A stretch of DNA of 34,635 bases, taken from Acidimicrobiales bacterium (lineage in GTDB: Bacteria; Actinomycetota; Acidimicrobiia; Acidimicrobiales; SZUA-35). How positions within the stretch are numbered: position 1 is the first letter of the stretch; each line of letters opens with the position of its first letter. Where the stretch lies: NCBI GenBank assembly GCA_020630195.1, contig JAHDBV010000049.1, positions 1-34,635 on the forward strand, in the 5' to 3' direction. The notes under the pieces were generated by a model. That model was not told the origin of the DNA and ran no database searches. It was given only the letters and a program-made list of their open reading frames with translations. Below are positions 444-29,093 of the stretch, one piece after another. A program made the translations under genes and the position numbers.

Positions 444-592
444 GTGACGGGTCCCGAGATCACTGCTCGCTGCCGGTTGGCTCCCGAGCTGCAGGTCGTC
501 GCCCGTGGCGCGCCGGTTGCGCAGCGCCTCGGGGATTCGGTGCGGAGTCTGGAAAGCCCGAGCCGGCAAACGGAAGTGCCTCCGGAGTGCTG

Positions 593-633
593 CATGCCTC
601 ATCTGTGGCCCGCCGGCTCCGGCTACTGGGACA
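593..633 (-). promoter_or_regulatory. 41-bp transfer element, copy 1
   Basis: Read on the minus strand it starts TGTCCCAG, has a variable middle, and continues CGGGCCACAGATGAGGCATG. Block order and spacing match the other three copies exactly. It points at the transglycosylase gene and lies 150 bases upstream of that gene's ATG at 443. Function is inferred. Confidence 0.7.
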
Positions 634-644
634 GGCAACATCCG

Positions 645-695
645 GACCCGAGTTCTCCGAGGGCTGCGGCCACTGTTCGAAGCCGAACTCGGGTC
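645..695. repeat. 11-bp perfect inverted repeat
   Basis: The arms are GACCCGAGTTC (645-655) and GAACTCGGGTC (685-695), separated by 29 bases. It lies 11 bases beyond copy 1 of the 41-bp element. The long spacer and the absence of a T-run argue against a simple terminator. A protein-binding site or a recombination scar is possible. Confidence 0.6.
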
Positions 696-870
696 GCGGC
701 GAGGGTGCCTCTTCCGAGCGGGCGCTACCCTCGAGCTGTGGCCGGACGACTTCATCGCTGCCGATCCGATGCGCCGACGACAGACCGCCGTCCACCCGCT
801 CAAGGTCCTCGGCGCGCTGTTCCCCAGCCTGCACCCGCATTGGCTGACGTACTGGGAGAGCGGTGGTTGA
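690..870 (+). pseudogene. Possible C-terminal remnant of an unknown gene
   Basis: The frame ending TGA at 868-870 has high-GC third positions over about 60 codons and ends in a hydrophobic, aromatic-rich tail (LFPSLHPHWLTYWESGG). The open frame upstream runs back to a GTG at 505, but codon bias fades before about 640 and the frame crosses the 41-bp element. That fits a truncated gene better than an intact one. I do not recognise the family. It may be debris at the left border of a Gabija insertion, or chance. Confidence 0.25.
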
Positions 871-894
871 GTTCGAAGGCGCGCCGGTAGTCGG

Positions 895-2610
895 GTGAGA
901 GTCGCCCGCATCAAGTTCTCGAACTATCGCTGCCTGCGCGATGTCGAGGTCGCGTTCGGTCAACGCACCGTACTCATCGGTGCGAATGGATCGGGCAAGA
1001 CGTCGATCCTCGACGCTCTCGACAAGGCCTTCGGCTCGGGTCGGCGCGGCTACGGCTTCCGCGAGAGCGACCTTTGCGACCCCGACCAAGACCTTGTCAT
1101 CGACTACACCCTCGTGCCCGACGACGGCAATACGTTCACCGCTGACGAGCACACCTTGTTCGAGACCCACGTGGATGTCGCGGGTGACGTCGAGGTAGTG
1201 CTGGTGCGGGTTGTAGCGGGCCACGAGGAGGACGGGGTCTTCCGCGCTCGCGCCTTCTTCCTCAAGAGTGACGGTGAGGAGGACGGGGCCTTCGACATCG
1301 CGACACGGTCGGCCATCGGGTTCTTCTTCCTTGGGGCTTCCCGAGACTCGCAACGAGAGTTCGATGACCGGGGCGGACTATGGGCGCGGCTATCGACGCT
1401 GCTGGAAGCGGCTCACGATCCGGAAGCCGTCGAATCTCTGACGGCCGACGCGGGACGAGACCTCGTCGAGGCTGTGTTGGGTGAAGACCGGCTTGGCGAA
1501 CTTGCCGAGACGGTGGAACGGTTCGTGGCGGTCCTACCGGCCGAGGTGCCGCTCTCAGCCGAGCTACGCGCAACATCGGTTGACTTCCGAAGCCTGCTGC
1601 GGGGCACGTCGCTTGTCGTCGGCGCCGGAGACGAGCTGCTCCCGCTGCGGGAACACTCGACCGGACTTCAGAGTCTCGCCCTCTTCGGTCTGTTTCGGGC
1701 ATTCCTCCAGACCGCTGGTGGCGGCTTGCTCGCTGTCGGACTCGAGGAACCCGAGATCCATCTGGCTCCGCATGTGGGCCGTTCCCTCGTAGCGCTAGCC
1801 AGCGAACCCGGCCATCAGGTGATCTTCACCTCCCATGCGCCGTTCATCACGGACACAGTCGAGGTGAACGAGATTCGTGTCCTGCGGAGCACGAGCGCGG
1901 GAACCGTCGTTCGGGCGGTCGACGGAGGCCTTTTTGATGTAGAGGAGCTCGCGCGGCTCAACCGCGAGTTGCGACTTGCTGGAACCGAGTTTCTCTTCGC
2001 TCGCGCCGTCCTGCTTTGCGAGGGCGCTAGCGAACTCGGTGCGCTGCCCGAGTTCGCACGGAAGCTCGCGTGTGATCTTGACCGAAGCGGCGTTTCGGTG
2101 CTCCCGGTCGGAGGCGGTGGCTTCGAGCCGTTCTTGAAGTTGCTGGGCCCCGACGGGTTCGATATCCCGCACTGCGTTGTCTGTGACAACGACCAGACGT
2201 TCGGCACGTTGCGCAAGGTGCTCGACCGACTCGGCCGGCTGCCGAAGGGTGTGCCTGCGAAGGGATCCCTGGATGCCAAGGGTCTGGAGCGAATGGCGAG
2301 CGCTGGGATGTTCACCTATCCGTCTGGTGACATCGAGGCGGTGATGGTCGCCGCAGACGGCTACGACAGCTTCGTCGCCGCAGCGGATTTGCTCTACGGC
2401 AAGGGGGAGCTGGAGGCGTTCCGGCTCCGGTACGTGCGCGACGGTGGCGATGACGACGATGCGACCGTCGTGCAACAGTTTGGCAAGAAGCGGGGGATTC
2501 GGAAGCCAGAATTGGCGGCCGAAGCTGCCAGCCGCATGAGCAGTGTGCCCGATGAACTCGCGGCGGTCATCAACCACATGATCGGTCTCTCCCGCCACAA
2601 GTCGGCATGA
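895..2610 (+). CDS. gajA: GajA-like OLD-family ATPase-nuclease (Gabija)
   Basis: This 571-residue protein has an ABC/SMC-type ATPase followed by a TOPRIM nuclease, the OLD-family layout. Walker A is GANGSGKT at residues 29-36, Walker B is LEEPEIHL near 283, and the H-loop is TSHAPF near 312. The TOPRIM domain shows LLCEGASE near 373 and VVCDNDQ near 428, the glutamate and Asp-x-Asp metal ligands. The start is GTG at 895, which places the first beta-strand (RIKFSNYRCL) at the N-terminus as usual. Its stop overlaps the helicase gene by four bases (ATGA), and the OLD-UvrD pair is the Gabija arrangement. In characterised Gabija, GajA nicks DNA when nucleotide pools fall during phage infection. 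Function here is inferred from family and pairing. Confidence 0.87.
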   Translation: MRVARIKFSNYRCLRDVEVAFGQRTVLIGANGSGKTSILDALDKAFGSGRRGYGFRESDLCDPDQDLVIDYTLVPDDGNTFTADEHTLFETHVDVAGDVEVVLVRVVAGHEEDGVFRARAFFLKSDGEEDGAFDIATRSAIGFFFLGASRDSQREFDDRGGLWARLSTLLEAAHDPEAVESLTADAGRDLVEAVLGEDRLGELAETVERFVAVLPAEVPLSAELRATSVDFRSLLRGTSLVVGAGDELLPLREHSTGLQSLALFGLFRAFLQTAGGGLLAVGLEEPEIHLAPHVGRSLVALASEPGHQVIFTSHAPFITDTVEVNEIRVLRSTSAGTVVRAVDGGLFDVEELARLNRELRLAGTEFLFARAVLLCEGASELGALPEFARKLACDLDRSGVSVLPVGGGGFEPFLKLLGPDGFDIPHCVVCDNDQTFGTLRKVLDRLGRLPKGVPAKGSLDAKGLERMASAGMFTYPSGDIEAVMVAADGYDSFVAAADLLYGKGELEAFRLRYVRDGGDDDDATVVQQFGKKRGIRKPELAAEAASRMSSVPDELAAVINHMIGLSRHKSA

Positions 2611-4364
2611 CGCTGTCCCCTGATGCGGTGCTCGAATCTCAACTCGACGCCGAACAACTCACCGTTGCAGTCGCGGAGGGAAACCTTCTGGTCCTTGCGC
2701 CACCGGGGAGTGGCAAGACCCGCGTCCTAGTCAACGCTGCCGCCCACAGGGTCAGGAACGGCGAAGCCATCACCGGGCGCCGACACACGCGCGCCATGTG
2801 CCTTACCTTCGGGACCGACGCCGCCAGCGAGATGAAGCAACGACTAGGACGCCGTCCGCTCTCCATCCCGTCGCAGCGGTTGTGGGTATCGAACTACCAC
2901 GGTGTGTGTGCACTGCTATTGCGCCGCTACGGGCACCTGATCGGCTGGCCACGTAGTGCTGGCATCGCTGGCACCGTAGAGACTCAGGGCGTGCTCGCAG
3001 AGGCCATCAGCGACCTCGGCATCCGCAACCTCAACGCAGGCGCCGTCACAACTGCGATCAGCCACCTTAAGGGCGGTCGAAGTAGCGAACCTCCCAGCAG
3101 CCGTCTGCAAGCGATACGGGCCCGCTACGACGCGCTTCTCGCTGAACGCAACATGCGCGACTTCGACGATCTCATCGCACATGCGTGTCAACTTCTGGCA
3201 AGTCAGGAACGAGTACGTTGCATCCTCCACGACGCATATCCGTTCGTGTTCGTCGATGAGCTTCAGGACACGAACGTGGCTCAACTCGAACTCCTGGGCC
3301 ATCTCGTGGGCCCGGCTACCTCTGTGTTCGGCGTAGCTGACGACGATCAGATGATCTACGGCTGGCGCGACGCACACCCCGAGAACTTGCATGCCTTCAT
3401 CGAAATGTTCAGGGCCACTGAGCAGCCGCTGGTGGGCAATTACCGCTGCCCGCCTGCCATCGTCGCTGCCGCCAACCGGATCATCAGTGAGAACCCCGAC
3501 CGGCGCAAGCAGGCGATGGAGTCGCGTGTCACGACACGCCACGGAGAACTCATCGTGATGACCGCATCCACGGTTTCCGAACCCGACGCCATTGTCGCCG
3601 CTATCGAGCGGAGCCTGAGCGATGGCTACGAGCTCGGCGATATCGCGATTCTCGCCCCGCACACTTTCAAGTTCGACGATGTCGCCGACGCACTCGAGAG
3701 TGCCGGAATCACGCACACTCGCGTGGGACGCGGCGCTCGAACGATCGCTGACAATCCCACGATCCGACTTCTCGCCCAGTGTCTCCGGCACCTGGCCGGT
3801 GCCACCCTCACCCCTGGCGAGCTGTCCGGTATCGGGGGTTCTTCTCCCGAGGAGCTGATCAACGAGATTGTCCAAGCCTGCTCCAAGGTCGCCGCCGGTG
3901 CCCCGCGTGGCGTGGTCAACAGGCTGCTACGAGAGTTCGATCTCGGCACAACCTCGTATCCAAAGCGGTCGGCCGATGAGGTCAAGGTGTTGGCGGCAAT
4001 GGCCCGCAAGGCCTACGACGACCAGGGCCCGGCATCCGTCTCCCAACTCGCCGAACTCGTCATCCGCGACTGGGACCGGCTTGAACGCTCAGCCCTTGAG
4101 TCCACTGCTGCCGTCAAGTTGATGACGAGCTTTGCCGCCAAGGGAACGGAGTTCCCCGTCGTGATTCTTCCGTACCTCAACAAGGGACTTGTTCCATACA
4201 AGCGCCGCAACGAGGACATCGACTGGCCAGAAGCGCGTCGCCTCTTCTACGTAGCGCTCACGAGAACCGAACACCGCGCCGTCTTGATTCATGATGGCGA
4301 CCTCGATCCATCTGCCTTCCTTGAAGCGGTGCTCGTCGACGCGACCGAGGCGATCGTTCTCTGA
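2607..4364 (+). CDS. gajB: GajB-like UvrD-family helicase (Gabija)
   Basis: This 585-residue superfamily 1 helicase has all main motifs: Walker A APPGSGKT (31-38), motif II VDELQDTN (about 216), motif III DDDQMIYGWRD (about 245), motif V SFAAKGTEFPVVILP (about 507), and motif VI RRLFYVALTRTE (about 542). It begins inside the stop of the nuclease gene, so the two are translationally coupled. In Gabija, GajB associates with the GajA tetramer and is needed for defence, probably by responding to DNA ends or single strands. A free-standing UvrD repair helicase is less likely given the partner. No toxin or immunity gene follows. Confidence 0.86.
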   Translation: MTLSPDAVLESQLDAEQLTVAVAEGNLLVLAPPGSGKTRVLVNAAAHRVRNGEAITGRRHTRAMCLTFGTDAASEMKQRLGRRPLSIPSQRLWVSNYHGVCALLLRRYGHLIGWPRSAGIAGTVETQGVLAEAISDLGIRNLNAGAVTTAISHLKGGRSSEPPSSRLQAIRARYDALLAERNMRDFDDLIAHACQLLASQERVRCILHDAYPFVFVDELQDTNVAQLELLGHLVGPATSVFGVADDDQMIYGWRDAHPENLHAFIEMFRATEQPLVGNYRCPPAIVAAANRIISENPDRRKQAMESRVTTRHGELIVMTASTVSEPDAIVAAIERSLSDGYELGDIAILAPHTFKFDDVADALESAGITHTRVGRGARTIADNPTIRLLAQCLRHLAGATLTPGELSGIGGSSPEELINEIVQACSKVAAGAPRGVVNRLLREFDLGTTSYPKRSADEVKVLAAMARKAYDDQGPASVSQLAELVIRDWDRLERSALESTAAVKLMTSFAAKGTEFPVVILPYLNKGLVPYKRRNEDIDWPEARRLFYVALTRTEHRAVLIHDGDLDPSAFLEAVLVDATEAIVL

Positions 4365-4509
4365 TCTGATCTGATGTGCGCGGTGGTCCAGCGCACGGAA
4401 GGGCTGGCTCACGGACAAGCGAACGTCGCAGCATTGCCCCGAGACTTGTCGGATCGCAACGGAATCCTGTTGCCCAGGGGCCCCAGTCCCGAGGGATTGC
4501 TGTTGTTGA

Positions 4510-4550
4510 TGTCCCAATGGCCGATTCGGACGGGCCACAGATGGGGCATG
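4510..4550 (+). promoter_or_regulatory. 41-bp transfer element, copy 2
   Basis: It starts TGTCCCAATG, has a variable middle, and continues CGGGCCACAGATGGGGCATG. It has the same orientation as the Tad operon, whose first likely start is 258 bases downstream. It is the only copy facing the 12-gene pilus run, so it is the best candidate for that operon's control site. Confidence 0.7.
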
Positions 4551-4582
4551 CACGTTGGGCGATTCGCACCAGAACCCTTGAC

Positions 4583-4598
4583 GGTGACCGAGGTCACC
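4583..4598. promoter_or_regulatory. 16-bp palindromic operator candidate
   Basis: GGTGACC and GGTCACC form perfect 7-bp arms around a GA spacer, between the 41-bp element and the first pilus gene. A TTGACG hexamer (4579-4584) overlaps its left edge and could be a -35 box, but no good -10 follows at 17-18 bases. It would suit a dimeric repressor. No regulator gene was recognised in the window. Confidence 0.4.
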
Positions 4599-4609
4599 TG
4601 GTTCCGTGG

Positions 4610-4618
4610 TTATCCACA
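4610..4618 (+). promoter_or_regulatory. DnaA-box-like nonamer
   Basis: TTATCCACA matches the consensus DnaA box exactly, 11 bases after the palindrome. I saw no second exact copy, so this is not evidence of an origin. It could let DnaA influence the pilus promoter, or be chance. Confidence 0.3.
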
Positions 4619-4807
4619 GGCTGAATCGCGCGGAGAGCGCGAGTCGGTGGCGGATCGGGCGATGCCAGGGGAGGTGCGACGGTGACGGATGGCTGTCACG
4701 ACGGGTTTGTACCGTCGACGACACCAGCTGAACCTGCGAGGTTCGGCCGCGCCGGCAGCTTCTCGATCGTCGCGAGCACGGGCCTCGCCTTCTCGAGGAG
4801 AACCGCC

Positions 4808-5800
4808 GTGCGCCTGACCCATCGCCCTGTCGTTCTGACCCTTCTCGCCGCGGCGCTGCTCGCCGCATGCAGCGGTGGCGACGACACGATCGCCGAACCC
4901 ACCGCAGAGACCGCGCCGACCAGCGAGGCGACCGCGGCTGCGACGACAGCGCCCCCGACGAGTACCGCGGCGCCCACCGCGACTCCCGACCCTTCTGGCG
5001 CCACCGAGGCATGGCTACAGCTGTGGGATGGGACCGAGAAGCTGGTGTCCGACCCCGACGCTGCCTCGGAGGAGATGCTGGTCGTCGCCAGCCCATCCGT
5101 AGTCGAGCAGCTCGCCACTATCTACAACCCGACCCTGGCGTCGGACGTCGCCAGCACGCCGAGATTGTTCGAGAACAACCCGGTCACGGAACCCCATGCG
5201 GACGGCACGGTTGCCGTCAGCGACTGCATCTTCGAGACACCCAAGGCCGGCAACGCCACGATCTGGTACTCGGGCACGGCCGAGGTGGTCGACGGGGACT
5301 GGACGATCACGTCGATCACGCTCAACTCCGAGATCGGCTGCGTTCCTTCGGCGATTGCGACCGAAGCGATCGCCGGCTACGAGGCGTATTGGGACGCACG
5401 GGTCGAGTTCTGGGACCCGGCCGATCCGTCGAGCCCGCTTGTCGACGAGACGATGGCGGGTGCCCACCTCGAGCTGATCGAAGGGCTGCTCGTCGATCAC
5501 GCCGATCGGGGCCTCGCCCTGCGCGGACGGCCGACAACTCACCCCGAGATCATCGAGGTCCGCTCGGCCACCGAGGTCGCCATCCTCGACTGCAGCGAGC
5601 AGGACACGGGCCGGGGTCTCTTCGTGGTCGAGACGGGTGAGCGTCTCGACGACATCCCGGCCGTGCGGGACGGCCAACGTGACCTCACCTCGGCGGTGAT
5701 GCTGCTCGAAGACGGGGCCTGGAAGGTCTCCGATGTACAGGGACAGGCGGACGTGTCATGCGAGTCGGCACCGACACCGCAGGGCTTGCCCGTCGTGTAG
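4808..5800 (+). CDS. Lipoprotein of the pilus operon, function unknown
   Basis: From the GTG at 4808 (GAGGAG at 4795-4800, seven-base spacer) the protein has a short lipoprotein signal: basic start, hydrophobic core, and lipobox LAAC with the lipidated cysteine at residue 21. A Thr/Ala/Pro-rich linker (about 28-62) leads into about 265 residues that look like two copies of an NTF2-like fold. Each has an aromatic-rich strand such as STIWYSGTAEVVDGDWTI-type segments. The frame is open back to GTG 4682, but that start would bury the lipobox. The product should sit on the outer face of the membrane. It is first in the Tad operon, so a scaffold or assembly role is plausible but unproven. Its end overlaps the next gene by 43 bases. 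Confidence 0.65.
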   Translation: MRLTHRPVVLTLLAAALLAACSGGDDTIAEPTAETAPTSEATAAATTAPPTSTAAPTATPDPSGATEAWLQLWDGTEKLVSDPDAASEEMLVVASPSVVEQLATIYNPTLASDVASTPRLFENNPVTEPHADGTVAVSDCIFETPKAGNATIWYSGTAEVVDGDWTITSITLNSEIGCVPSAIATEAIAGYEAYWDARVEFWDPADPSSPLVDETMAGAHLELIEGLLVDHADRGLALRGRPTTHPEIIEVRSATEVAILDCSEQDTGRGLFVVETGERLDDIPAVRDGQRDLTSAVMLLEDGAWKVSDVQGQADVSCESAPTPQGLPVV

Positions 5801-6753
5801 CCGCCGCGTTCGCGGCGGTCACGGCGACGCTGACACTCGTCGCCGCGCCCGTCGCTGCGCAGCCGACGCCGCCCGATCCGGGCCCGCCGGCACCGATCAA
5901 CCCGTTGCCGATCACCCCAGCGTGCCCCGACACCGGAGGCGGTGGAGCGGCGATCGACCAGAATGGCGGCGCCGTCCTCGGCACGTGTTGGGGCAACACG
6001 CCCGGTTCAGGGCCCGACATCACTGTCTCATCTGCTCTCGTGTGGAACTGGTACGGCTGCGACCAGTGGCGTCCGTACTCACCGGGATCGACCGTCTCCG
6101 CCGTCACTCCCCAAGGCGAGCTCTTGCTCGAGGACATCATCGCCCGAGGCCTCGACCCGACCGTCACCTACGTCTGGCACACGGTCGAGTGCACGCATGT
6201 CCAACAGGGAGCAGGCGCTGACGGCGCCGACCTCGTCGAGATCTGGGGTTGGGGACTTCTCGTCATCGGCACGACCGCACCGGTCGATCCGCTGACCCTG
6301 CGTGACATCGCCGCCGCCCGCATCGATCCCGAACCCCCGACCCCGGCTACGTCTCCCATGTGGGGCGAGGTGGCATCGGTCGTCAACATGAGCACCTGGC
6401 TCTGGGTGACCGACGACTGGGAGCCGGTCGAGGAGGAGGAGTCCCAGGGCTTTGTCACCGTGGTGGTCCAGGCCCGCCCGGTGGAGACCTCCTGGGACAC
6501 CGGCGACGGCACCACCGTCGTGTGCGTCAACGGCCCCGGCGTCCCGTGGACGCCGGGCATGGCGAGCGACGACACCTACTGCTCACACACCTTCACCGCC
6601 GCCGGCACGGGACTGGCCGGCTCAGCCACCACCACGTGGACCTTCCGCTGGTGGCTCAACGGCAACGACATGGGCGATTTCGGCGACTTCTCCCGAACCA
6701 CCCCGATCTCGTTCGACGTGACCGAGATCCAGGCAATCGAGACCGGCAGATAG
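5758..6753 (+). CDS. Secreted protein with a PKD-like region
   Basis: This 331-residue protein has a cleavable signal peptide (hydrophobic core about 10-30, AxA-type site near 33) and a Pro-rich stretch (PTPPDPGPPAP). Near residue 242 is a segment like a PKD/Ig-type domain: SWDTGDGTTVVC, later YCSHTFTAAG, then alternating strands. Several cysteines could form disulfides outside the cell. It is likely an extracellular or wall-exposed part of the pilus locus. The ATG at 5758 lies inside the end of the lipoprotein gene, a 43-base overlap. The next start supporting a signal peptide would be lost, so I keep it. Exact role unknown. Confidence 0.65.
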   Translation: MRVGTDTAGLARRVAAAFAAVTATLTLVAAPVAAQPTPPDPGPPAPINPLPITPACPDTGGGGAAIDQNGGAVLGTCWGNTPGSGPDITVSSALVWNWYGCDQWRPYSPGSTVSAVTPQGELLLEDIIARGLDPTVTYVWHTVECTHVQQGAGADGADLVEIWGWGLLVIGTTAPVDPLTLRDIAAARIDPEPPTPATSPMWGEVASVVNMSTWLWVTDDWEPVEEEESQGFVTVVVQARPVETSWDTGDGTTVVCVNGPGVPWTPGMASDDTYCSHTFTAAGTGLAGSATTTWTFRWWLNGNDMGDFGDFSRTTPISFDVTEIQAIETGR

Positions 6754-6760
6754 GAACACC

Positions 6761-7438
6761 ATGACTACGACACTCCGACCCCGGCCCAAGCCGAGCAGCA
6801 ACGGCTCATCACCACCGACGCGCTTCGACATCGAGCCACCGAACCACGGCTCAGCTCGCAGCAAGTGGCCGGAGATCACCCTCGGTCTGCTCGTGGTCGC
6901 CCTCTTTGCCCTCGTCGGAACCTGGTTCTACTCCTCGACCTCCGATCGTGAGCCCGTCATCGCTGTCCGAAACCCGATCGAGCGCGGGCAGCAGATCACC
7001 GCTGGCGACCTCATGGTGGTGGACGTAGCCAGCGAACAAGCGATCAACGCTCTTCCAAGCGACCAGTCCGGCCAGGTCCTCGGACGCAGCGCGCTGGTCG
7101 ACCTTGCGCCAGGGACCCTCGTGTCGGGTGATCTGTTCGCCGAGCAGGCGCAGATCGCTGATGGCGACGGGGTCGTGGGACTCGCCCTCGATCCCGGCGA
7201 ATACCCCACGCTCACCCTTGCCCCCGGAGACCGCGTCCGCGTCGTCGAGACACCCAAGGGAACCGACGCCACCACCGAGATCGTCCTGGTCGCCGACGCC
7301 GAGGTCATCGACGTCACCCCGATTGGGGTCCAGAACCAGCTCTTCGTCTCGGTTTCGATGGCAGCCACCGAAGCCGACGCCGTCGTCGCTGCGGCTTCGC
7401 AGGATCGTGTGCGGCTCGTACAAGTGGCGGGGTCCTGA
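6761..7438 (+). CDS. SAF-domain pilus protein, CpaB/RcpC-like
   Basis: This 225-residue protein has a disordered basic N-terminus, one membrane helix (about 33-54, LGLLVVALFALVGTW) and an external SAF domain. The SAF segment reads PIERGQQITAGDLMVVDVAS and then VLGRSALVDLAPGTLVSGDLF. In Tad loci CpaB/RcpC proteins sit on the outer side of the membrane and help stabilise or guide the pilus. In Gram-negatives they contact the secretin, which is absent here. It starts eight bases after the previous stop, and the next gene begins two bases after its own stop. The family call is good; the partner is unknown. Confidence 0.75.
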   Translation: MTTTLRPRPKPSSNGSSPPTRFDIEPPNHGSARSKWPEITLGLLVVALFALVGTWFYSSTSDREPVIAVRNPIERGQQITAGDLMVVDVASEQAINALPSDQSGQVLGRSALVDLAPGTLVSGDLFAEQAQIADGDGVVGLALDPGEYPTLTLAPGDRVRVVETPKGTDATTEIVLVADAEVIDVTPIGVQNQLFVSVSMAATEADAVVAAASQDRVRLVQVAGS

Positions 7439-7439
7439 C

Positions 7440-8261
7440 ATGGCGCTCATCTGCTTCGCCTCCGCCAAGGGCTCACCCGGTTCGACGCTCACCGCGCTGG
7501 CGGTCGCTGCTGCCTGGCCGACATCCGGCGGTCGTCGCAAGCTGCTGCTCGAAGCCGACGCTTCGGGCGGGACGCTCGCGCTCCGCTACGGACTCGGGCT
7601 CGAGCCCGGTCTCGTCACCTTCGCGGTCGCTGCCCAACGCCACCTCGATCCCGAAGCTCTCTGGGGCCATGCCCAACACCTCCCGGGCGGACTCCCCGTG
7701 ATCGTCGGGCCCGACAACCCCGACAGAGCGGCCTCGGTCCTCGCCCGAAGCGCCGGAATGATCGCCAGCCGGCTGGCCGAACAGTCCGACCTGGACGTCA
7801 TCGTCGACATCGGCAGGCTCGGCACCGAAGCCCCCAACATGGACATCCTTCGGGCCGCCGACGTGATCCTCATGGTGGCCCGGCCGACGGTCGAGCAACT
7901 CCAGCCTGGGGCCCATCGGCTCCGCTCGCTTCCGGTCCCCGACGACCGACTGAGCTGGGTCCTCATCGGGCAGGCACCTCACTCCGCAGACGAGGTTCGC
8001 AAGGCGCTTGGCTTCGACGTCGCTGGCGTCATCGCCGACGACCCCCGTGGAGCCGCTGCCCTCGAAGGCGGCGCCGCCGGGAGCCGACTTCGCCGATCGG
8101 CGCTGGCCCGGAGCGCCAGTGCGCTCGCCGAGACGTTGGCGAAGCGGCACCACCCTGTCGCCCGACAGATGGCCGCGGCGGAGGCCGCCGTCGACGACGA
8201 CAAGCGAATCAGCCGAGCGACGTTCGAGATGTTGATGAACGGAGCCTCCAATGGCCGCTGA
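7440..8261 (+). CDS. CpaE-like MinD-family ATPase homologue with degenerate P-loop
   Basis: This 273-residue protein has the MinD/ParA fold order. It starts with MALICFASAKGSPGST, followed by LLLEADASGG where MinD has the switch I aspartates, and DVIVDIGRLG as the Walker B strand. The deviant Walker A expected as KGGxGKT reads KGSPGST (residues 10-16). The first lysine is kept but the lysine before the final threonine is serine, so ATP hydrolysis is doubtful. CpaE proteins position Tad machinery. Here it sits directly before TadA, as in many Tad loci. The frame is open far upstream, but ATG 7440, just after the previous stop, is the natural start. Its end overlaps TadA by 11 bases. Confidence 0.78.
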   Translation: MALICFASAKGSPGSTLTALAVAAAWPTSGGRRKLLLEADASGGTLALRYGLGLEPGLVTFAVAAQRHLDPEALWGHAQHLPGGLPVIVGPDNPDRAASVLARSAGMIASRLAEQSDLDVIVDIGRLGTEAPNMDILRAADVILMVARPTVEQLQPGAHRLRSLPVPDDRLSWVLIGQAPHSADEVRKALGFDVAGVIADDPRGAAALEGGAAGSRLRRSALARSASALAETLAKRHHPVARQMAAAEAAVDDDKRISRATFEMLMNGASNGR

Positions 8262-10427: not shown

Positions 10428-11368
10428 ACGGTCCGCTGTTCGCTGCGCTCATCGGCGCCGGTCTCGGGGCCGGCTGTCTCCTGATCATCCGTGGGCTGCG
10501 CCCTCGACCGGTGCCGCTCGTCGTCGCCATCCGAGCCCTGGATCAACCCGGGCGCTCAGTCAGCACACCGCTCGCGCCCTCCCACGACGACCTTCGTCGA
10601 CGGCTCGGCCGCTCTAGCGCACGGGTCATGGCTGCGTTCGGGCTCGCCGAGAGCGGGGTGCTCGCCGAGCAGCTGCGAGTGCTCGACAAGCCCATCGAAC
10701 GCCACGCCTACGAGAAGCTCCTCGCCGCAACGGCCGGCTTCGCCCTCCCGATGCTCGCCTACGCAGGACTCACCGCAGGCGGGGTGAGCGTCTCGCCAGT
10801 GGCGCCCCTGATTGCAGCGGTCGTCCTCGCAACTGGTGGCTTCCTCTACCCCGATCTGCCACTCGCTGAACAGGTCGAGCAACGCCGCCAGGGGTTCCGT
10901 CACGCCTTGTCGAGCTGGCTCGATCTCGTCACCATCATCCTCGCCGGCGGCGGCGGCATCGAGACCGCCCTCACCGGGGCATCGAACGTCGGGGGTGGCT
11001 GGGCCTTCGACGAGATCCGCCTCGCACTGCGCCGTGCCGAACTGACCGGGCGCCCCCCGTGGGATCTCCTCGACGAGCTCGGCGCCACCCTCGGCGTCGT
11101 CGAGCTCCAAGAGCTCGCTGCCTCTGTCCGTCTGGCCGGCGGGCAGGGGGCGAAGATCCGCCAGTCTCTCGCCGCCAAGGCCGACGCCCTCCGGGCCCAG
11201 CAGGCCGCCGACATCGAGACGAACGCCGAGACACGCACCGAGAAGATGATCGTCCCGGTCACCGTCATGGTCCTCGGCCTCACCCTCTTCATCGGCTTCG
11301 GCGCCATCGACGCCATCAGCACCGACGGCGGCGCAACCACCTTCACGCCCGCGGCGGTGCAGCCATGA
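10424..11368 (+). CDS. tadC: TadC-like pilus platform membrane protein
   Basis: This 314-residue protein has the second T2SSF domain of the platform pair. Helices occur at about 3-22, 102-145 and 270-295. The conserved cytoplasmic part reads LSSWLDLVTIILAGGGGIETAL, then RRAELTGRPPWDLLDELG, and later RQSLAAKADALRAQQAADIE. It is coupled to tadB through ATGA, and its own stop overlaps a possible ATG (11365) of the pilin gene. The order tadA-tadB-tadC is standard. The pairing with TadB is family knowledge. Confidence 0.82.
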   Translation: MNGPLFAALIGAGLGAGCLLIIRGLRPRPVPLVVAIRALDQPGRSVSTPLAPSHDDLRRRLGRSSARVMAAFGLAESGVLAEQLRVLDKPIERHAYEKLLAATAGFALPMLAYAGLTAGGVSVSPVAPLIAAVVLATGGFLYPDLPLAEQVEQRRQGFRHALSSWLDLVTIILAGGGGIETALTGASNVGGGWAFDEIRLALRRAELTGRPPWDLLDELGATLGVVELQELAASVRLAGGQGAKIRQSLAAKADALRAQQAADIETNAETRTEKMIVPVTVMVLGLTLFIGFGAIDAISTDGGATTFTPAAVQP

Positions 11369-11427
11369 CCCCCGCCCCGACGATCGCCCAGCCACCAACT
11401 GACCCAAAACCAGAGAGGACCGATCCC

Positions 11428-11649
11428 ATGGATCAGCTCAAAGCACACGTCGAGTTCCTGCGATTCGGCATCGAATACAACCTGACCAAGGCCGGCGTCG
11501 CCGTGCGCGACGAACGTGGAGCGATCTCCACCGAGATGGCGGTCGTCATGGCCGGCTTGATTGCCATCGCCGTCGTGGTCACCGGGATCCTGATGTCGAA
11601 GGCGCAGTCCAACGCCAACAACATCCCCGACACCGTCCAGGCCCCCTGA
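11428..11649 (+). CDS. Small Flp/TadE-like pilin
   Basis: This protein of about 73 residues has a basic leader, the prepilin-type site RG|AISTEM (glutamate at +5) and a single hydrophobic helix (AVVMAGLIAIAVVVTGIL). Its short length and short tail after the helix suit the major Flp pilin. The helix would pack into the fibre core after cleavage. The ATG at 11428 follows AGAGGA at about ten bases. The alternative ATG at 11365 overlaps the tadC stop (ATGA) and would add 21 Pro-rich residues. No prepilin peptidase (TadV/CpaA) is visible in the window, so processing must use an enzyme encoded elsewhere. Confidence 0.75.
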   Translation: MDQLKAHVEFLRFGIEYNLTKAGVAVRDERGAISTEMAVVMAGLIAIAVVVTGILMSKAQSNANNIPDTVQAP

Positions 11650-11656
11650 GCCGAAG

Positions 11657-12079
11657 ATGACGACCAGGGCACCGACCGTCGACTCGGCGCGCCGCCGTTT
11701 GCGTGGCGAAACCGGCGTCACGTCGACCGAGATCGCGATCGTCATGCCCGTGATGCTCATCGCCGTGATGCTGGTGTTCCAGGTCGCCCTGTTCTGGCAC
11801 GCCAAACAAGCGGCCGACACGGCCGCTGAGGAAGCCGTCGACGCGGCACAGGTCGCAACGGCGACCGACGCCGAGGGCTACGCCGGGGCGGACACGATCC
11901 TCTCCCAAGCCGGCAACCTGCGAGACGTTCAGGTCAGCGTCACCAGAGACCTCGCCAGCGGCGTCGTCACTGCGACGGTTACCGGCCGGGCTCCGTCGAT
12001 CATTCCCTTCGGATCATGGAGCGTCTCGGCCCAGGCGCAGGGGTCGATCGAACGGTTCATCCCGGCGGACGAGCGATGA
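11657..12079 (+). CDS. TadE-like pseudopilin
   Basis: This 140-residue protein has a basic leader ending TG|VTSTEIAIV, the prepilin cleavage pattern with glutamate at +5. A hydrophobic helix follows (about 27-48), then FWHAKQAADTAAEEAVDAAQ, the TadE core, and a beta-rich C-terminal half. TadE-type pseudopilins are minor components that prime or adapt the Flp fibre. It starts seven bases after the small pilin gene, and its stop overlaps the next ATG. Confidence 0.75.
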   Translation: MTTRAPTVDSARRRLRGETGVTSTEIAIVMPVMLIAVMLVFQVALFWHAKQAADTAAEEAVDAAQVATATDAEGYAGADTILSQAGNLRDVQVSVTRDLASGVVTATVTGRAPSIIPFGSWSVSAQAQGSIERFIPADER

Positions 12080-12507
12080 CCCGCCTGGCTCAGTGGCGCA
12101 GCGACGAGCGGGGATCGGTCGCGACCGAGTTCGCCATCGTCATGGCCGCAGTGCTCCTCGGCTTCGTTGCGCTCGCCGTCTACGGCGGACGAGTCGTCCA
12201 GGCCGAGAACGATGTCCGCAGCGCCGCACAGGAAGCGGCCAGAGCCGCCAGCCTCGAAGGCACCCCGGCAGCGGCCGACGCAGCCGCACGTTCCGTCGCC
12301 GTCGCCAACCTGTCCCGATCAGGAGTGTCTTGCCCAACCCCGGTCGTCGCCGTCGACCTCGCTCGCTTCGGCCCCGGCGGCGAGGTGACCGTGACAATCA
12401 CCTGCACCGCATCCTTCGCCGACGTCGGCAGCCTCGGCGTCGCCGAGTCCCGAGCCTTCACGGCAACGGCCACCGAGGTAGTCGACCGGTATCGAGGTGG
12501 CGCATGA
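12076..12507 (+). CDS. TadE/TadF-like pseudopilin
   Basis: This 143-residue protein has the same layout as the preceding one: leader ending RG|SVATEFAIV with glutamate at +5, one hydrophobic helix, then VVQAENDVRSAAQEAARAAS. A C-terminal domain follows with two cysteines (SGVSCPTP and VTITCTAS) that could form a disulfide. ATG 12076 overlaps the previous TGA, and the frame extending to 12016 is not needed. It is probably a paralogue created by duplication of a TadE gene. Confidence 0.75.
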   Translation: MTRLAQWRSDERGSVATEFAIVMAAVLLGFVALAVYGGRVVQAENDVRSAAQEAARAASLEGTPAAADAAARSVAVANLSRSGVSCPTPVVAVDLARFGPGGEVTVTITCTASFADVGSLGVAESRAFTATATEVVDRYRGGA

Positions 12508-12929
12508 CCACCCGGGCACCCTCAGCCACGCGGGCTGCGTCATCCCTGGCGGGCGAACGGGGCGCAGCCTCGATCCTGTTCGCCGTGCTCGGGCTCGCGC
12601 TGTTGATGGCGACCGGCCTCGCCGTCGACGGCGGCCGCAAGCTCGGCGCACTCAGCGAAGCGCGCGACATCGCCGACAACGCCGCCCGCGCCGGTGCCCA
12701 GATGATCGACGAGGACACCTACCGAACGAGTGGTGTCGCAGCCATCGACCCTGCCGCCGCCATCCAACGAGCACAGGCCTACCTGGCCGCGCACGGCCAC
12801 ACCGGCGTCGTCATTGTCACCGGAACCGACGTCACCGTGACCGTGACCATCACGCTCGACCCCACCTTCCTTCCAGGACTCATGACCGTGTCGGCCACCG
12901 AGTCCGTCACCGCAACCACCGGCACGTAG
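12504..12929 (+). CDS. TadG-like membrane protein without the +5 glutamate
   Basis: This 141-residue protein starts with a leader and RGAASILFAVLGLALLMATG, then LAVDGGRKLGALSEARDIADNAARAGAQ, the usual start of TadG-type proteins. It keeps the glycine before the helix but lacks a glutamate at +5, so it is probably a membrane-anchored assembly protein and not a processed pilin. It has only about 80 residues beyond this region and no von Willebrand A domain, much shorter than Gram-negative TadG. It is coupled to the preceding gene by ATGA. Confidence 0.68.
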   Translation: MTTRAPSATRAASSLAGERGAASILFAVLGLALLMATGLAVDGGRKLGALSEARDIADNAARAGAQMIDEDTYRTSGVAAIDPAAAIQRAQAYLAAHGHTGVVIVTGTDVTVTVTITLDPTFLPGLMTVSATESVTATTGT

Positions 12930-12937
12930 AGGACGCC

Positions 12938-15900
12938 ATGCACCGAATCACCGATCTCATCAAGGGCCTCGCCGGCCTCGCCCTCACGCTCGGCCTTCTC
13001 ATCGGCCTACCAGTCGGGTTGGCCGCCGTAGTCGGCTGGCCCCTCCCGACTGCGTGGCCAGGGCTCGAGACCATCGGGCGTCACCTGAGCGACGGCGACA
13101 TCCCCGACGCGTTCCTCCTCAAGCTCATCGCCATCATCGTCTGGGTGGCGTGGGCGCAGATCACCGTCGCAACGCTGATCGAGTACGTCACGATCATCCG
13201 AGGCAAGGCAGCGCACCGAAGCCCGACCTTGCCAGCTGTGCGGCTCCTCGCAGCGAAGCTCGCCACCTGGACCACGCTGCTGGTCAGCGCCGTCGGTCCG
13301 ATCCGCCCCGCGATGGCCGCGCCCCTCGCTCCGATTCCGGTCGTCGCCGCCGAGCTCGACCTCCCGGTCGCAGCTGCCGAGGGCCCGGCCGACGTGCCCG
13401 ATCCGGACGTGCAGGAAGTCGTCGCATCGCAGCGGTATGTGACCCGCCAGGGCGACACCTGGTGGTCGATCGCCGAAGACCTGCTCGGCGACGGACTGCG
13501 ATGGAAGGACATCCGGGCTCTGAACGTCGAAAGCCGAATGGGCGACGGCACGGTGATCACCGCGTCGACGGACATGGTCCGACCCGGATGGAACCTGGCA
13601 GTGCCGAGCGACGCCGCCCTGCCCACGTCGTTGGTTGAGATCGGCGACGATGCGTCGTCGGAGGTCGTGGTCGAGAAGGGCGATCATTTCTGGGCGATCG
13701 CAGACGAGGCGCTGACCGACGCATGGGGTCGCCCCCCGACTGATGCCGAGCTGACCCCCTACTGGACGGAGATCGTCGCAGCGAACGAGGACCGGCTCCT
13801 GCCACCGGAAGACCCGAACCTCATCTACCCCGATCAGCGCTTCGTCTTGCCGGCACCGCCACCAAGCCCGGACCTCGCCCCCGACCTGAACGGCAACCCA
13901 ACGATCGTCCCGAGCGAGGGCGCCCCTCCGGAGGAAGCTGCGCCGTTGGAGGCCTCCGAGTCGCCAGTCGTCCCGACATCACCCGCTCCACCCGAGGAGA
14001 GCCCTGCACCGTTCGAGGTTCCGACAATCGCTCCGGCACCGGCCGTGTCGACGCTGCCCGAGCCAGCACCCGCTCCTGCGACCGAACCGGCCGCCGGTGA
14101 AGACAGGATCGATCGGGCACTTGACGCGGCGAAGCCGGTCGGCGTCGTCGCCGGGGGCATCGCACTGCTCGGTGGCACGCTGCTCTTCACACTTCGACGG
14201 CTGCGCCACATCCAAGCGGCCCGTCGGCGACCCGGTACGACGATCGATCCGCCCGATCCCGAGGCGGCATCGTTCGAGCGACGGATTCGTTCCATCAGCG
14301 TGGACGGCGAGGACGTCCGGTACCTGGCAGCGGTCAACCGATACCTGAGCCACCAGCTCGAGAAGTCTGACACTGCGATCCCGGCGATCGTCGCCGCCCG
14401 AGCTGGACAGTTTGGCCTCGAACTGCTTCTCGACGAGCCGTGCGAGCCCGTCGCCGGGTTCGTCCCCGCGACCCCGGACAAGTCCGCCTGGCAGCTCGAC
14501 CCGGACCTCGACGCCCGCATGATGGAAGCCGCGTTCGGCGACGACGCCCACCCCTTCGCTCCCGCCCTGTGCCCAGTCGGCGCCACCGATGCTGGCAATC
14601 TGCTGCTCGACTTCGAGCAACTCGGGTCGACAGCGATCGAAGGGTCGGTGGAGGACGTCGCCGCCTTCGAGCGAGGCTTGGTCGCCGCACTGTGCGCCGC
14701 CCCGTGGGGAACCGGATGCGAGATCGTCGCCATCGGGATCGACGGGCTCTCGAACGACGACCTCAGCCGCGTGACGGTGCTGGCTGATCCGGTCGCCTGG
14801 GCCGCCGAGGCAGGGGAGCACATGAAGCGGATCGCCTCGTCGCTTCAGCGGAGCCCCTACGAAGAGCGGGTCGCTCACGGCGAGGTCTACCACCCGACCG
14901 TCGTCGTCATCGGGCCTGGGGCAGAGCTGGCCGGGGTCGCCCAGCACCTCGCTCCAATCGCCGACCTGGCGTACTCGCCCCTCGCGGTCATCTCGGCTCA
15001 CCCTCTCGCCGGTGAGCACCGGATCGCTCTCGAAGCCGGCACCGGAACGATCGAACCGCTCGGCATCAGCTTCGTGCCCGTCTCACTCGCAGCGGCGGAC
15101 CTGCACGCTGTCGACCACCTGATCGCCAACGCGTCCGACACATCCACCAGCCCGCCAGCCGAAGCATGGGCCGAGGAGATCCGCAGCGCCGATCACGCAG
15201 AGTCGTCCGACGGCACGAGCAATGGCTCGGCCCCCGCCGTGATCGACCTGACACCTGAAGCACCGATCGCCGAAGGCGAAGCCGCCGAGCCAAGCCAGGA
15301 AGCGCTCGACCGAATCGCCGCGATCATGGAACCCCGGCCGGTCGAAGTGAAGATCCTCGGTCGCAAGCCCACCGTTGATGGACTCACCGACTCGGCCTCG
15401 GCGAAGCTCGAGGCGATCATCGTCTACCTCACCTTCCACCGCAGCGTGTCGAGCGAGCGGTTCCGCGACGAGTTCTGGCCTCGGTCGAACAGCCGGGCTG
15501 CCGGTGACAACGCCATCACCAAGGTGCGGACCCTCCTCGGCATCGACGCTGAGGGCACGGCACGGCTCGACTCGGCCCGCAACAGCGGAACCTACGTCGT
15601 CAGCGACGAAGTCGGCATGGACTGGCACCGGGTCGAGGCGCTCGTCGCTGCCGCCAAGGGGGCACCGGAGGCCGACGAGATCGCCTATCTGAAGGCCGCC
15701 TGCGAACTCATCGACGGCCACATCGCTGCTGACGCCCCACCGAGCGCCTACGCGTGGCTGCTCCGGGAGCCGACGATCTACACGCTCATCGAGACGACCC
15801 TCGTCGACGCGGCCCACCGCTGCGGCGAACTCGCGCTTGCCGCTGGCGACTGCGACCTCGCCCGCTGGGCTGCTCGCAAGGGCCTCACGATCGTCGAGGG

Positions 15901-16096
15901 CCAGGAGTCGCTGTATCGGATGCGCATGCAGGCCGCCTACGAGGCCGGAGACCGTGACGGCATCGTCCAGGCCTTCCAGGAGGCTCAGCGAGCAGCGGAG
16001 TCCTACGGCTACGCAGAGGAAGTCCAGCCAGAGACCCAGGCGCTGTTCGATCAGCTCACGGCGTCGAGTAGGGCGAGCGGTTCCCGAAACACGTAG
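12938..16096 (+). CDS. Large membrane protein with LysM repeats and a cytoplasmic BTAD domain
   Basis: This protein has 1052 residues from ATG 12938, preceded by GAGG at nine bases. Helices lie at about 8-35, 59-85 and 105-122. An external segment carries two LysM-type modules: YVTRQGDTWWSIAEDLLGDG near 167 and VVEKGDHFWAIADEAL near 244. A Pro/Ala/Glu-rich stalk (about 305-385) and a further helix (about 395-415) follow. The rest should be cytoplasmic. It ends, from about residue 802, in an SARP-like winged helix (KILGRKPTV, later ERFRDEFWPRSNSRAAGDNA) and a BTAD helical domain. LysM binds peptidoglycan, and BTAD domains occur in AfsR/SARP regulators. It could relay wall or pilus status to transcription. 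Such fusions recur beside actinobacterial Tad-like loci, but their role is not established. Confidence 0.72.
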   Translation: MHRITDLIKGLAGLALTLGLLIGLPVGLAAVVGWPLPTAWPGLETIGRHLSDGDIPDAFLLKLIAIIVWVAWAQITVATLIEYVTIIRGKAAHRSPTLPAVRLLAAKLATWTTLLVSAVGPIRPAMAAPLAPIPVVAAELDLPVAAAEGPADVPDPDVQEVVASQRYVTRQGDTWWSIAEDLLGDGLRWKDIRALNVESRMGDGTVITASTDMVRPGWNLAVPSDAALPTSLVEIGDDASSEVVVEKGDHFWAIADEALTDAWGRPPTDAELTPYWTEIVAANEDRLLPPEDPNLIYPDQRFVLPAPPPSPDLAPDLNGNPTIVPSEGAPPEEAAPLEASESPVVPTSPAPPEESPAPFEVPTIAPAPAVSTLPEPAPAPATEPAAGEDRIDRALDAAKPVGVVAGGIALLGGTLLFTLRRLRHIQAARRRPGTTIDPPDPEAASFERRIRSISVDGEDVRYLAAVNRYLSHQLEKSDTAIPAIVAARAGQFGLELLLDEPCEPVAGFVPATPDKSAWQLDPDLDARMMEAAFGDDAHPFAPALCPVGATDAGNLLLDFEQLGSTAIEGSVEDVAAFERGLVAALCAAPWGTGCEIVAIGIDGLSNDDLSRVTVLADPVAWAAEAGEHMKRIASSLQRSPYEERVAHGEVYHPTVVVIGPGAELAGVAQHLAPIADLAYSPLAVISAHPLAGEHRIALEAGTGTIEPLGISFVPVSLAAADLHAVDHLIANASDTSTSPPAEAWAEEIRSADHAESSDGTSNGSAPAVIDLTPEAPIAEGEAAEPSQEALDRIAAIMEPRPVEVKILGRKPTVDGLTDSASAKLEAIIVYLTFHRSVSSERFRDEFWPRSNSRAAGDNAITKVRTLLGIDAEGTARLDSARNSGTYVVSDEVGMDWHRVEALVAAAKGAPEADEIAYLKAACELIDGHIAADAPPSAYAWLLREPTIYTLIETTLVDAAHRCGELALAAGDCDLARWAARKGLTIVEGQESLYRMRMQAAYEAGDRDGIVQAFQEAQRAAESYGYAEEVQPETQALFDQLTASSRASGSRNT

Positions 16097-16120
16097 GGGT
16101 GCCATCGGTAGCATCGTCAG

Positions 16121-17017: not shown

Positions 17018-17051
17018 TACGAGGTGTTCTGGCTGCTGCTGAGAAGGGTGA

Positions 17052-17075
17052 AGGACCTGCTGGCGCGTCGGTCCT
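17052..17075. terminator. Weak stem between convergent genes
   Basis: AGGACC (17052-17057) and GGTCCT (17070-17075) form a 6-bp stem between the convergent HEPN-like and ssb genes. It has a 12-base loop and no T-tract. It may be a bidirectional terminator, but the support is weak. Confidence 0.25.
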
Positions 17076-17703
17076 AATCGCGGACTGTCGTCTGTCCCGT
17101 AGCAGGAAGGCTCGGGACCACATCTGCTGATTGAAGGCGTATGCCGCGCTCTCTGCCAGGGGCGTCCGGCCGGTAGTCCAAATGCCCTCTCACGGAGACC
17201 GCCTGGTGTACCTGGACGTCGAGCGGCGACTCGGTGTGGGGCGACCAGCGTTCAACGTCGATCCAGAGGCGACCCGACTTCGAACCAGCTCGGCCAGCTG
17301 CCAAGCGAAAGGAATGCATGACGCCACGCTTCGTCGGTCGCTCGGGGTAGAGGGTCTCGACCGTGCCTGCGACGACGACCGTAGAGGGCAGCAGCACGGG
17401 CTCCGGTCCTTCGCGTAGGAGATCGACGTCGAGCGCCGTGACGACGTAGCGGTGGCGGGACTCGCCGGTCTCTCGGTCGCGCCAAGTCTTGTAGGTGAGA
17501 CGACCGCTGACGAGCACCCCGCGTCCGACTGAGCCGTGGTGGGCGACGGTGCCGGCGAGCTGGCCCCAGGCTTCGACGTCGATCCAGAGTCGTCGGTTGT
17601 TGGGTGCTCCGGTCTCGAGCCGGAAGGTGGCGAGGACACCGTTGCGGGTCTCCTTGCGAACGATCTCGTCGGAGATGATGCCGGCCGCTACGAAGAAGGC
17701 CAT
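17074..17703 (-). CDS. ssb: Single-strand-binding protein with two OB folds
   Basis: This 209-residue protein carries two consecutive SSB-type OB folds. The first (about 1-97) reads GVLATFRLE, RRLWIDVEAWGQLA, VLVSGRLTYKTW. The second (about 106-197) reads STVVVAGTVETL, GRLWIDVERW, VSVRGHLDYRP. Ordinary bacterial SSB has one OB fold per subunit and an acidic tip that recruits repair proteins. Here the tail ends TGQTTVRD with no acidic tip. It is probably an element-encoded SSB that coats transferred single strands without recruiting host SSB partners. ATG 17703 lies inside the end of the upstream gene (16-base overlap), so the two form an operon. Confidence 0.75.
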   Translation of the reverse strand: MAFFVAAGIISDEIVRKETRNGVLATFRLETGAPNNRRLWIDVEAWGQLAGTVAHHGSVGRGVLVSGRLTYKTWRDRETGESRHRYVVTALDVDLLREGPEPVLLPSTVVVAGTVETLYPERPTKRGVMHSFRLAAGRAGSKSGRLWIDVERWSPHTESPLDVQVHQAVSVRGHLDYRPDAPGRERGIRLQSADVVPSLPATGQTTVRD

Positions 17704-18119
17704 TGGAGTGCCTCCTCCGATGGACCATCGAACCCGGGCAACGGTTCCTGCTCGTGTCTGGCGGGGCGCTGTCGTCGGGTTCGGCGCTCGCGATCCCTCG
17801 GCTTGGGTCTGGGCGCTGGCGTGGGCGGAGGAGGGTTGTGGCTGGCGACGAGCCGGAGTCGCTCGATGGCGCCGACCGTCTCGCCCGGTGAGCTGGCGTC
17901 GCCGCCGGTGATGACAAGGTCGATGTCGCGGCCGAGGCGGCCCGGGAGCGCTGGGAGTGCCTTCATGGCCGTCACGATGTTCTCCAGCTCGGTGACCTTG
18001 GGCTGCTCTCCGGCGAGCTGACGGTCGTACCAGGCCACGAGATCGCGGCACGCGCTCGAGATGGGAGCGAGGTCGATGACCGAGCCGCCAGGTGCGGTGG
18101 GTTCGTCGTTGGTGTCCAT
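17688..18119 (-). CDS. Unknown protein encoded upstream of ssb
   Basis: This 143-residue protein starts at ATG 18119 with MDTNDEPTAPGGSVIDLAPI. It has an alpha-helical central part (VAWYDRQLAGEQPKVTELEN, then GRLGRDIDLVITGGDASSPG). The Pro/Arg-rich tail (PPPPTPAPRPKPRDRERRTR) suggests nucleic-acid or protein contact. I do not recognise the family. The start codon is the last three bases of copy 3 of the 41-bp element, so the message may be leaderless or begin within the element. The ssb gene overlaps its end by 16 bases. It probably works with the single-strand-binding protein during transfer or establishment (context inference). Confidence 0.6.
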   Translation of the reverse strand: MDTNDEPTAPGGSVIDLAPISSACRDLVAWYDRQLAGEQPKVTELENIVTAMKALPALPGRLGRDIDLVITGGDASSPGETVGAIERLRLVASHNPPPPTPAPRPKPRDRERRTRRQRPARHEQEPLPGFDGPSEEALQWPSS

Positions 18120-18157
18120 GACTCTTCTGTGGCCCGCGGCAGACCACCGTTGGGACA
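18117..18157 (-). promoter_or_regulatory. 41-bp transfer element, copy 3
   Basis: On the minus strand it starts TGTCCCAACG, has a variable middle, and continues CGGGCCACAGAAGAGTCATG. The final ATG is the start codon of the gene upstream of ssb. It is the most divergent copy: the tail differs, but both core blocks are exact. It faces away from copy 4. Confidence 0.7.
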
Positions 18158-18187
18158 CCGATCGTCGGCGAGGAATCGGAGACCGCC

Positions 18188-18228
18188 TGTCCCAATGAGG
18201 CGAGCGGCCGGGCCACAGATGGGGCACG
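18188..18228 (+). promoter_or_regulatory. 41-bp transfer element, copy 4
   Basis: It starts TGTCCCAATG, has a variable middle, and continues CGGGCCACAGATGGGGCACG. It precedes the type IV secretion operon, 24 bases before the GTG start at 18253. Copies 3 and 4 stand back to back, 30 bases apart, serving divergent operons. Confidence 0.7.
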
Positions 18229-22191: not shown

Positions 22192-22192
22192 C

Positions 22193-29044: not shown

Positions 29045-29093
29045 CAGGGGTGTGACACGAACCTGCTCTGGCAGAGGGGCGCAGGGCGTCGGG

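Follow-up and report, generated by a model that had tools for sequence, protein, structure and literature searches.

What is the function of a two-block DNA site that recurs ahead of four transfer operons, and which protein reads it? The question is raised by a stretch of 34,635 nucleotides from an Acidimicrobiales bacterium (assembly GCA_020630195.1, contig JAHDBV010000049.1), called the window here, which is the whole of contig C125 in a genome of 4.9 Mb (200 contigs, 82% complete). A first-pass annotation had described a fixed-spacing element in four copies and had offered two readings of it, the binding site of a transfer regulator or an unusual promoter class. We propose that the four sites are probably promoters of an integrative and conjugative element (ICE), with TGTCCCA as −35 and CGGSCCACAG as −10, read by a divergent sigma-70-like protein that the element itself encodes at 30180-30950.

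Two-block sites ahead of transfer genes

The pattern TGTCCCA-N14-CGGGCCACAGA has four exact copies in the window, at 602-633(-), 4510-4541(+), 18126-18157(-) and 18188-18219(+). All four have their block starts 21 bases apart, and their tails are CATG, CATG, CATG and CACG, just as the annotation had described them. When up to three mismatches were allowed, 100 dinucleotide shuffles of the window gave a mean of 0.04 matches and a largest count of 1, and no shuffle reached five; the window holds a fifth match at this level, within the SAF-domain gene 6761-7438 (6964-6995, plus strand), and no others. The sites, with their putative promoter blocks, are:

593-633, minus strand: site 1, exact match; −35 block TGTCCCA 627-633, −10 block 603-612, ATG 593-595; faces the transglycosylase gene
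4510-4550, plus strand: site 2, exact match; −35 block 4510-4516, −10 block 4531-4540, ATG 4548-4550; faces the Tad operon
18117-18157, minus strand: site 3, exact match; −35 block 18151-18157, −10 block 18127-18136, ATG 18117-18119; faces the ssb operon
18188-18228, plus strand: site 4, exact match; −35 block 18188-18194, −10 block 18209-18218; faces the type IV secretion operon

Each copy points into one unit (transglycosylase, Tad, ssb or type IV secretion), as had been claimed, the transglycosylase being recognised by similarity to genes of G003 and G032. A search with a degenerate consensus at up to four mismatches found no site before the Gabija, Res/Mod, Mrr and DUF3644 genes or the coupling-protein operon, where none had been seen before. 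Genes were called by our own script and their start positions are approximate. At site 1, the ATG (motif position 39) starts an open reading frame (ORF) of 51 amino acids with an ATGA overlap to the ATG at 443-441 in the transglycosylase frame. The ATG of site 2, also at position 39, starts a 45-residue ORF overlapping a GTG at 4682 that is in frame with the next gene, whose start our gene caller placed later, at 4808. At site 3 the ssb operon's first gene (143 amino acids) starts from the position-39 ATG. Site 4 is without an ATG at this position; a GTG start with AGGAGG is found at 18253, which is 65 bases away from the start of the motif.

Elsewhere in the genome a fifth copy, with one mismatch, lies on contig C114 and ends right before the ATG of a MobF/TrwC relaxase gene. 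Across a family sample of 39 genomes, the pattern TGTCCCA-N14-CGGSCCACAGV (the A pattern) at up to one mismatch precedes transfer-type genes in seven (G000, G003, G019, G021, G032, G035 and G036); one further match of this quality, in G034, falls within a gene. The genes behind A sites are those for the transglycosylase, Tad, ssb and secretion units, relaxases and small excisionase-like proteins, one of the last with a serine recombinase gene behind it. No A match with two mismatches in the family has an ATG or GTG at positions 34-41. Random or intragenic placement had been named beforehand as the outcome that would speak against the element. In related elements the motif stands ahead of orthologous transfer operons; eight weak matches elsewhere (L007, L010, L011, L014, L015, L017, L020 and L026) lack an ATG or GTG at 34-41 and were counted as chance, and six of them lie within genes (five in called genes on the opposite strand, L017 in a same-strand gene, L015 and L020 in no called gene). 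The exact A pattern was found in seven stretches of genome_contigs, three from Acidimicrobiia, each at an excisionase-like gene, and four from unrelated phyla, taken as chance; viral_contigs held no exact match. The four window sites are real, and the transfer regulon, defined by position, is wider than first described, since it includes relaxase and excisionase genes. The expectation that the motif stands ahead of orthologous transfer operons in related elements holds within the close family and fails in distant elements, whose letters differ.

We tabulated 21 sites (19 distinct), which were found by pattern, so that the invariance of their blocks is partly by construction. The table leaves out 14 matches with three or four mismatches in fetched loci, the G021 site, which is the same as that of G019, and the longer-spacer relaxase sites of G003 and G032; one match with three mismatches (L040:10610), divergent to a Tad site and with an ATG at 38, was retained. 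Positions 2-7 and 26-31 are invariant in 21 of 21, and the 14 bases between the blocks vary. All 17 tabulated sites outside the secretion operon have an ATG at position 38-41 from the motif start. It is the gene's own start for four excisionase-like genes, three distinct ssb-operon sites and the C114 relaxase; at the remaining sites it starts an ORF of 7 to 83 amino acids, the end of which overlaps the next gene's start codon (ATGA, GTGA or TGATG) at site 1, in the relaxase cases L044 and L046 and at the G032 transglycosylase. The secretion operon is the exception, with the pilin-like gene starting 65-72 bases from the motif start. TANNNT occurs at motif positions 19-38 in none of the 21 sites. 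If transcription starts from the ATG at 38-41, the blocks would occupy about −38 to −32 and −17 to −8, the usual places of a −35 and a −10. Of the two readings first offered, the promoter class fits best, and it is well supported.

A predicted sigma factor on the element

A PF04542 search of seven genomes gave 35 matches in the window's genome. Canonical sigma factors were rejected as candidates: among the matches listed (E to about 3e-9), none lies in the element regions G003:C13 or G032:C8. Attention was therefore given to the protein at 30180-30950, which the annotation had named among possible binders of the sites, together with the small protein at 23560-23844 and a BTAD domain; the first is sigma-70-like by the comparisons below, and BTAD is a match at E 0.072 only.

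The gene is kept beside the coupling protein gene, directly upstream of it, in related elements. With all candidates scored, homologues were found in four of the 39 family genomes, all four among the seven that carry the motif (chance 4e-4 assuming independent genomes, an independence that is not full). A profile search listed 36 proteins of the family. Two of them, P0037 and P0039, score above the Pfam cut-off of Sigma70_r4_2 (sigma-70 region 4), and the homologue in G064 matches region 4 at E 0.0013, below that cut-off. The window's protein had no match in NCBIfam (E≤1) or among PDB sequences (profile, E≤10), and only weak ones, to unknowns, in PHROGs. A diverse alignment of the family compared with 20 host sigma ORFs, one of which resembled only one other, gave a probability of 92.3% over 222 columns, with reversed controls at ≤0.3%.

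Structure prediction points the same way. The AlphaFold model of the 30180-30950 protein is all-helical (pLDDT 83), and among the 50 rows that VIA-align shows for it almost all are sigma factors or initiation complexes; its region-2-like part superimposes on an RpoS region-2 fragment at 2.4 Å over 92 residues. In the model of P0037 (pLDDT 85.5), the C-terminal domain superimposes on SigD's −35-binding domain (1.8 Å over 62 residues) and on DNA-bound sigma region 4 (1.4 Å over 57). Region 4, the −35-binding part, is recognisable; region 2, the part for binding the −10 and the core enzyme, is putative. The window's protein also has an N-terminal extension. Taken together, the alignments and models give good support to its membership in a divergent sigma-70-like family.

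Related elements, rival readings and satellites

By a VirB4 search, 108 of 397 genomes of the order have this channel type. Few candidates per genome were scored in the order-wide VirB4 and sigma-like searches, so that absence weighs little there; all candidates were scored for VirB4 in G066, G150 and G103, and for the sigma-like protein in these and in G019, G021 and G035. The sister (B) family, G064 and G368, has a VirB4 78% identical and a similar gene order, and its sigma-like protein is 25% identical in the alignment (27-29% in local matches). The G064 sites read TGTCGCG-N16-GTCCCTSG, exactly at the ssb and secretion operons and with one mismatch at the transglycosylase and Tad operons; the relaxase site has one mismatch and a spacer one base longer. 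In both genomes the ssb operon starts at an ATG at 38-39. A scan of 19 G064-family genomes for the B-type pattern (≤2 mismatches) was swamped by chance, the reversed control being similar in size, and was not used. A third family, G066 and G150, carries TGTGGCG-N14-RCACCAGTMG in six and eight exact copies, with none in the family's eight other genomes. This code precedes relaxase, excisionase, Tad-like, secretion and transglycosylase genes; the sigma-like gene adjoins relaxase genes, and its product is a more distant homologue than that of the B family.

A motif-free test looked for a 7-base and a 10-base block common to both strands of the divergent region before the channel operon (spacers 6-24, 60 shuffles each). 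Of 55 regions, 15 reached p≤0.05. For 12 of these, 13-16 are among the best spacers, with seven letter codes, several of the 12 being close relatives; the other three (L106, L193 and L195) have other spacings and are about as many as expected from 5% of 55. The B element L090 stopped short at p 0.066. Six of the seven codes have at least one element in which a sigma-like gene is found on the same contig, no more than 60 kb away; the seventh (G103) has a single weak sigma-like match, on another contig. Among the best 42 of 59 sigma-like rows, the 17 weaker ones being left out of this count, 14 lie within 60 kb of a VirB4 row on the same contig, with 1.4 expected. The element lineages appear to have their own sigma/promoter pairs, of one geometry and different letters. 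In another channel clade (L101, L102 and L103, from G395, G043 and G040), a facing pair GTAGGCCCC / GGGGCCTAC was seen by eye in the divergent region; it was not significant in the two-block test.

We link the sigma-like protein to the sites because the two co-occur and their letters differ in parallel between families; that it reads these sites, the transcription start points and the order of events are what we infer. Polymerase bearing the element's sigma factor would turn on all transfer units at once, those for excisionase/integrase, relaxase, secretion channel, Tad pilus, cell-wall hydrolase and single-strand binding protein. The mRNAs from most sites would be leaderless, with their first base at the ATG 38-41 bases from the motif start or next to it. 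Neither the sigma gene nor the coupling protein gene has such a site, and both would be expressed beforehand.

Several observations weigh against this reading. The 30180-30950 protein itself has no Pfam match at E≤10, a narrower family alignment compared with host sigmas scores 57%, and Foldseek is weak for its model (best E 0.21; 0.013 for P0037). G019, G021 and G035 carry the motif and have no sigma-like gene at E≤0.001. The spacer is one base longer at the relaxase sites of G003, G032 and G064, the B-type transglycosylase site of G064 is without an ATG at positions 35-46, and 40 of the 55 divergent regions of related channels yielded no two-block pair.

The motif might instead be the operator of an element-encoded activator (the 94-residue protein at 23560-23844, a BTAD/LysM protein or the DUF2510 protein), which would bring in polymerase containing the housekeeping sigma. 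Such activators are a known route, as with AcaCD (PMC4207636), and the 94-residue and DUF2510 proteins are kept in related elements. At leaderless starts, however, the motif ends 6-9 bases before the ATG, which leaves no room for another −10; TANNNT is absent from all 21 sites, and none of the three candidates has a clear DNA-binding domain (no Pfam match, DUF2510 only, and BTAD at E 0.072, respectively). We regard an activator as unlikely, and slightly more so a host-encoded sigma factor, of the extracytoplasmic-function (ECF) type or another, as the reader. The 35 PF04542 matches, the motif-bearing genomes without a sigma-like gene and the similar promoters of ECF41 (TGTCACA-n16-CGTC; PMC3426412) would suit a host sigma, but in the 39 family genomes the motif is confined to genes of transfer type, and element families with different sigma-like proteins also have different motif letters.

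That the sites are recombination, origin or packaging repeats, or chance, and no transcription signals at all, seems very improbable. Two copies do face each other in the ssb/secretion region, and inverted pairs can be recombination or origin sites; yet the shuffles give 0.04, and the sites point into genes at a fixed start-codon distance with the bases between their blocks free. Promoters read by the element's own sigma factor are the reading that we favour.

Some loci carry the putative promoter alone. On G066:C38, G066:C57 and G150:C103, relaxase, excisionase-like and integrase genes surround a divergent pair TGTCGCG-N14-RCACCAGTAG, with no VirB4 (E≤1e-20) and no sigma-like gene (E≤0.001) on these contigs; they look like mobilizable elements borrowing the promoter of a resident conjugative element. 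The same may be true of loci in G019 and G021, where sites lie at excisionase or relaxase genes and no VirB4 (E≤1e-40) or sigma-like gene was found, both assemblies having more than 600 contigs. A compact locus in G066 (L297:4636-6788, contig C32) holds a relaxase-like gene, its own sigma-like gene, an excisionase-like gene and an integrase gene.

We give about even weight to a broader proposal, that a whole family of orthogonal sigma factors exists on the conjugative elements of Acidimicrobiia, each firing its own programme through its own promoter code at a fixed geometry, and that mobilizable elements parasitise the promoter without sigma or channel. If the favoured reading is true, an element sigma with a promoter of its own would account for the joint firing of scattered transfer operons and for their silence at other times. 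The sites would offer a sequence signature for finding whole transfer regulons and their satellites in uncultured bacteria, and natural sigma/promoter sets of constant geometry and changing letters would be useful for studying the evolution of promoter recognition.

Genes of the window, mobility and known systems

The units and proteins discussed above are encoded as follows:

3-569, minus strand: transglycosylase-like gene, cut by the contig end; start by homology near 443
4682-16096, plus strand: Tad-type pilus operon (SAF, T2SSE, two T2SSF, TadE, TadE/Tad, LysM)
17074-18119, minus strand: ssb operon, a 143-residue protein and a single-strand binding protein (PF00436)
18253-23844, plus strand: type IV secretion operon, with a DUF6112-like pilin candidate, SCO6880-family and VirB4-like ATPase proteins and the 94-residue protein
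28631-29185, minus strand: small protein with C-terminal DUF2510 (PF10708)
30180-30950, plus strand: predicted sigma-70-like factor, 256 amino acids, the proposed reader of the sites
30947-33298, plus strand: coupling protein of TraG/VirD4 type (PF02534, PF12696), downstream of the sigma-like gene; no site upstream within four mismatches

The transglycosylase-like gene has 75.7% identity over 107 amino acids with the G003 gene, which has SLT_2 and Peptidase_M23. Two labels of the first-pass annotation should be read with caution: for the 'HEPN' protein at 28631-29185(-), Pfam at E≤0.5 gives only a C-terminal DUF2510, and BTAD is the weak match already cited. Matches to the DUF2510 protein (tblastn) adjoin the sigma-like gene in G003, G032, G036, G064 and G368, and its gene is the divergent neighbour of the sigma-like gene in the A and B elements apart from the window's, in which the Mrr gene intervenes. 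As a guess, it could be a partner or anti-sigma of the sigma-like protein. The Mrr frame as listed, 29094-30611(-), overlaps the sigma-like gene, and the true Mrr start is probably near 29970, because Mrr_N begins only at residue 219.

Between sites 1 and 2 lies a Gabija-like pair (OLD-like ATPase and UvrD-like helicase, 895-4364). The counterparts of these sites face each other about 25 bases apart in G032 (L040:10610-, 10635+) and about 120 in G064, and because of this close range the pair looks like cargo dropped between two facing promoters. The 94-residue protein at 23560-23844(+), after VirB4, has no Pfam match at E≤10 and is kept in related elements (55% identical in G003, 39% over 56 amino acids in G305). 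A second channel copy in the same genome (L107, G000:C168:1-3749), cut by the contig end, carries a VirB4 C-terminal part 96% identical and a version of the 94-residue protein (59%). Scans of the window for tRNA and Rfam families found nothing.

Among the parts of an ICE, the window has the channel and coupling protein, with the relaxase on C114 of the same genome; no integrase was seen in the window. G064 qualifies as an ICE, with integrase, excisionase, Tad, channel, coupling protein and relaxase on one contig beside housekeeping genes. The elements of G003 and G032, from two genera, share several long stretches with mostly 91-97% identity; sequence fetched from ahead of the elements gave no match. 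Both G064 and G003 have a tRNA-Leu(GAG) gene near the element, at a distance of about 2 kb from the integrase in G064 (L110:2370-2456) and of about 10 kb from the serine recombinase in G003 (L037:5-90); it is a possible shared attachment site. In both genomes it is near gap/tpi genes.

Known switches of transfer in ICEs and plasmids are mostly repressors and activators acting via host sigma factors. Orf7 of Tn916 and similar proteins of conjugative transposons are sigma-like and encoded on a conjugative element, as here, and belong to another phylum and probably to another protein family. In the available part of a review of Gram-positive conjugation, 'sigma factor' is named only for the host's sigma-H (PMC6540685), and among the papers listed by literature searches we recognised none on an element-encoded sigma of this kind for transfer genes.

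The promoter of ECF41, TGTCACA-n16-CGTC, is the nearest among those compared, being like the window sites and not the same (PMC3426412). Shared are a 7-base −35 beginning TGTC, a fixed spacer of about 16, a short −10 and a sigma factor with region 4 and, in the window's protein, a putative region 2. Its letters, however, are unlike TGTCCCA / CGGSCCACAG, so that the window sites do not class as ECF41 promoters; moreover, ECF41 has a C-terminal extension and controls a single transcript next to it, whereas here a mobile element's transfer regulon and an N-terminal extension are found. In regulatory design the likeness is to AcaCD of IncA/C plasmids and SGI1, an element-encoded master switch whose satellite islands carry the same site at excision and mobilization genes (PMC4207636). 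AcaCD is an activator complex, whereas the element described here would use a predicted sigma factor with its own promoter.

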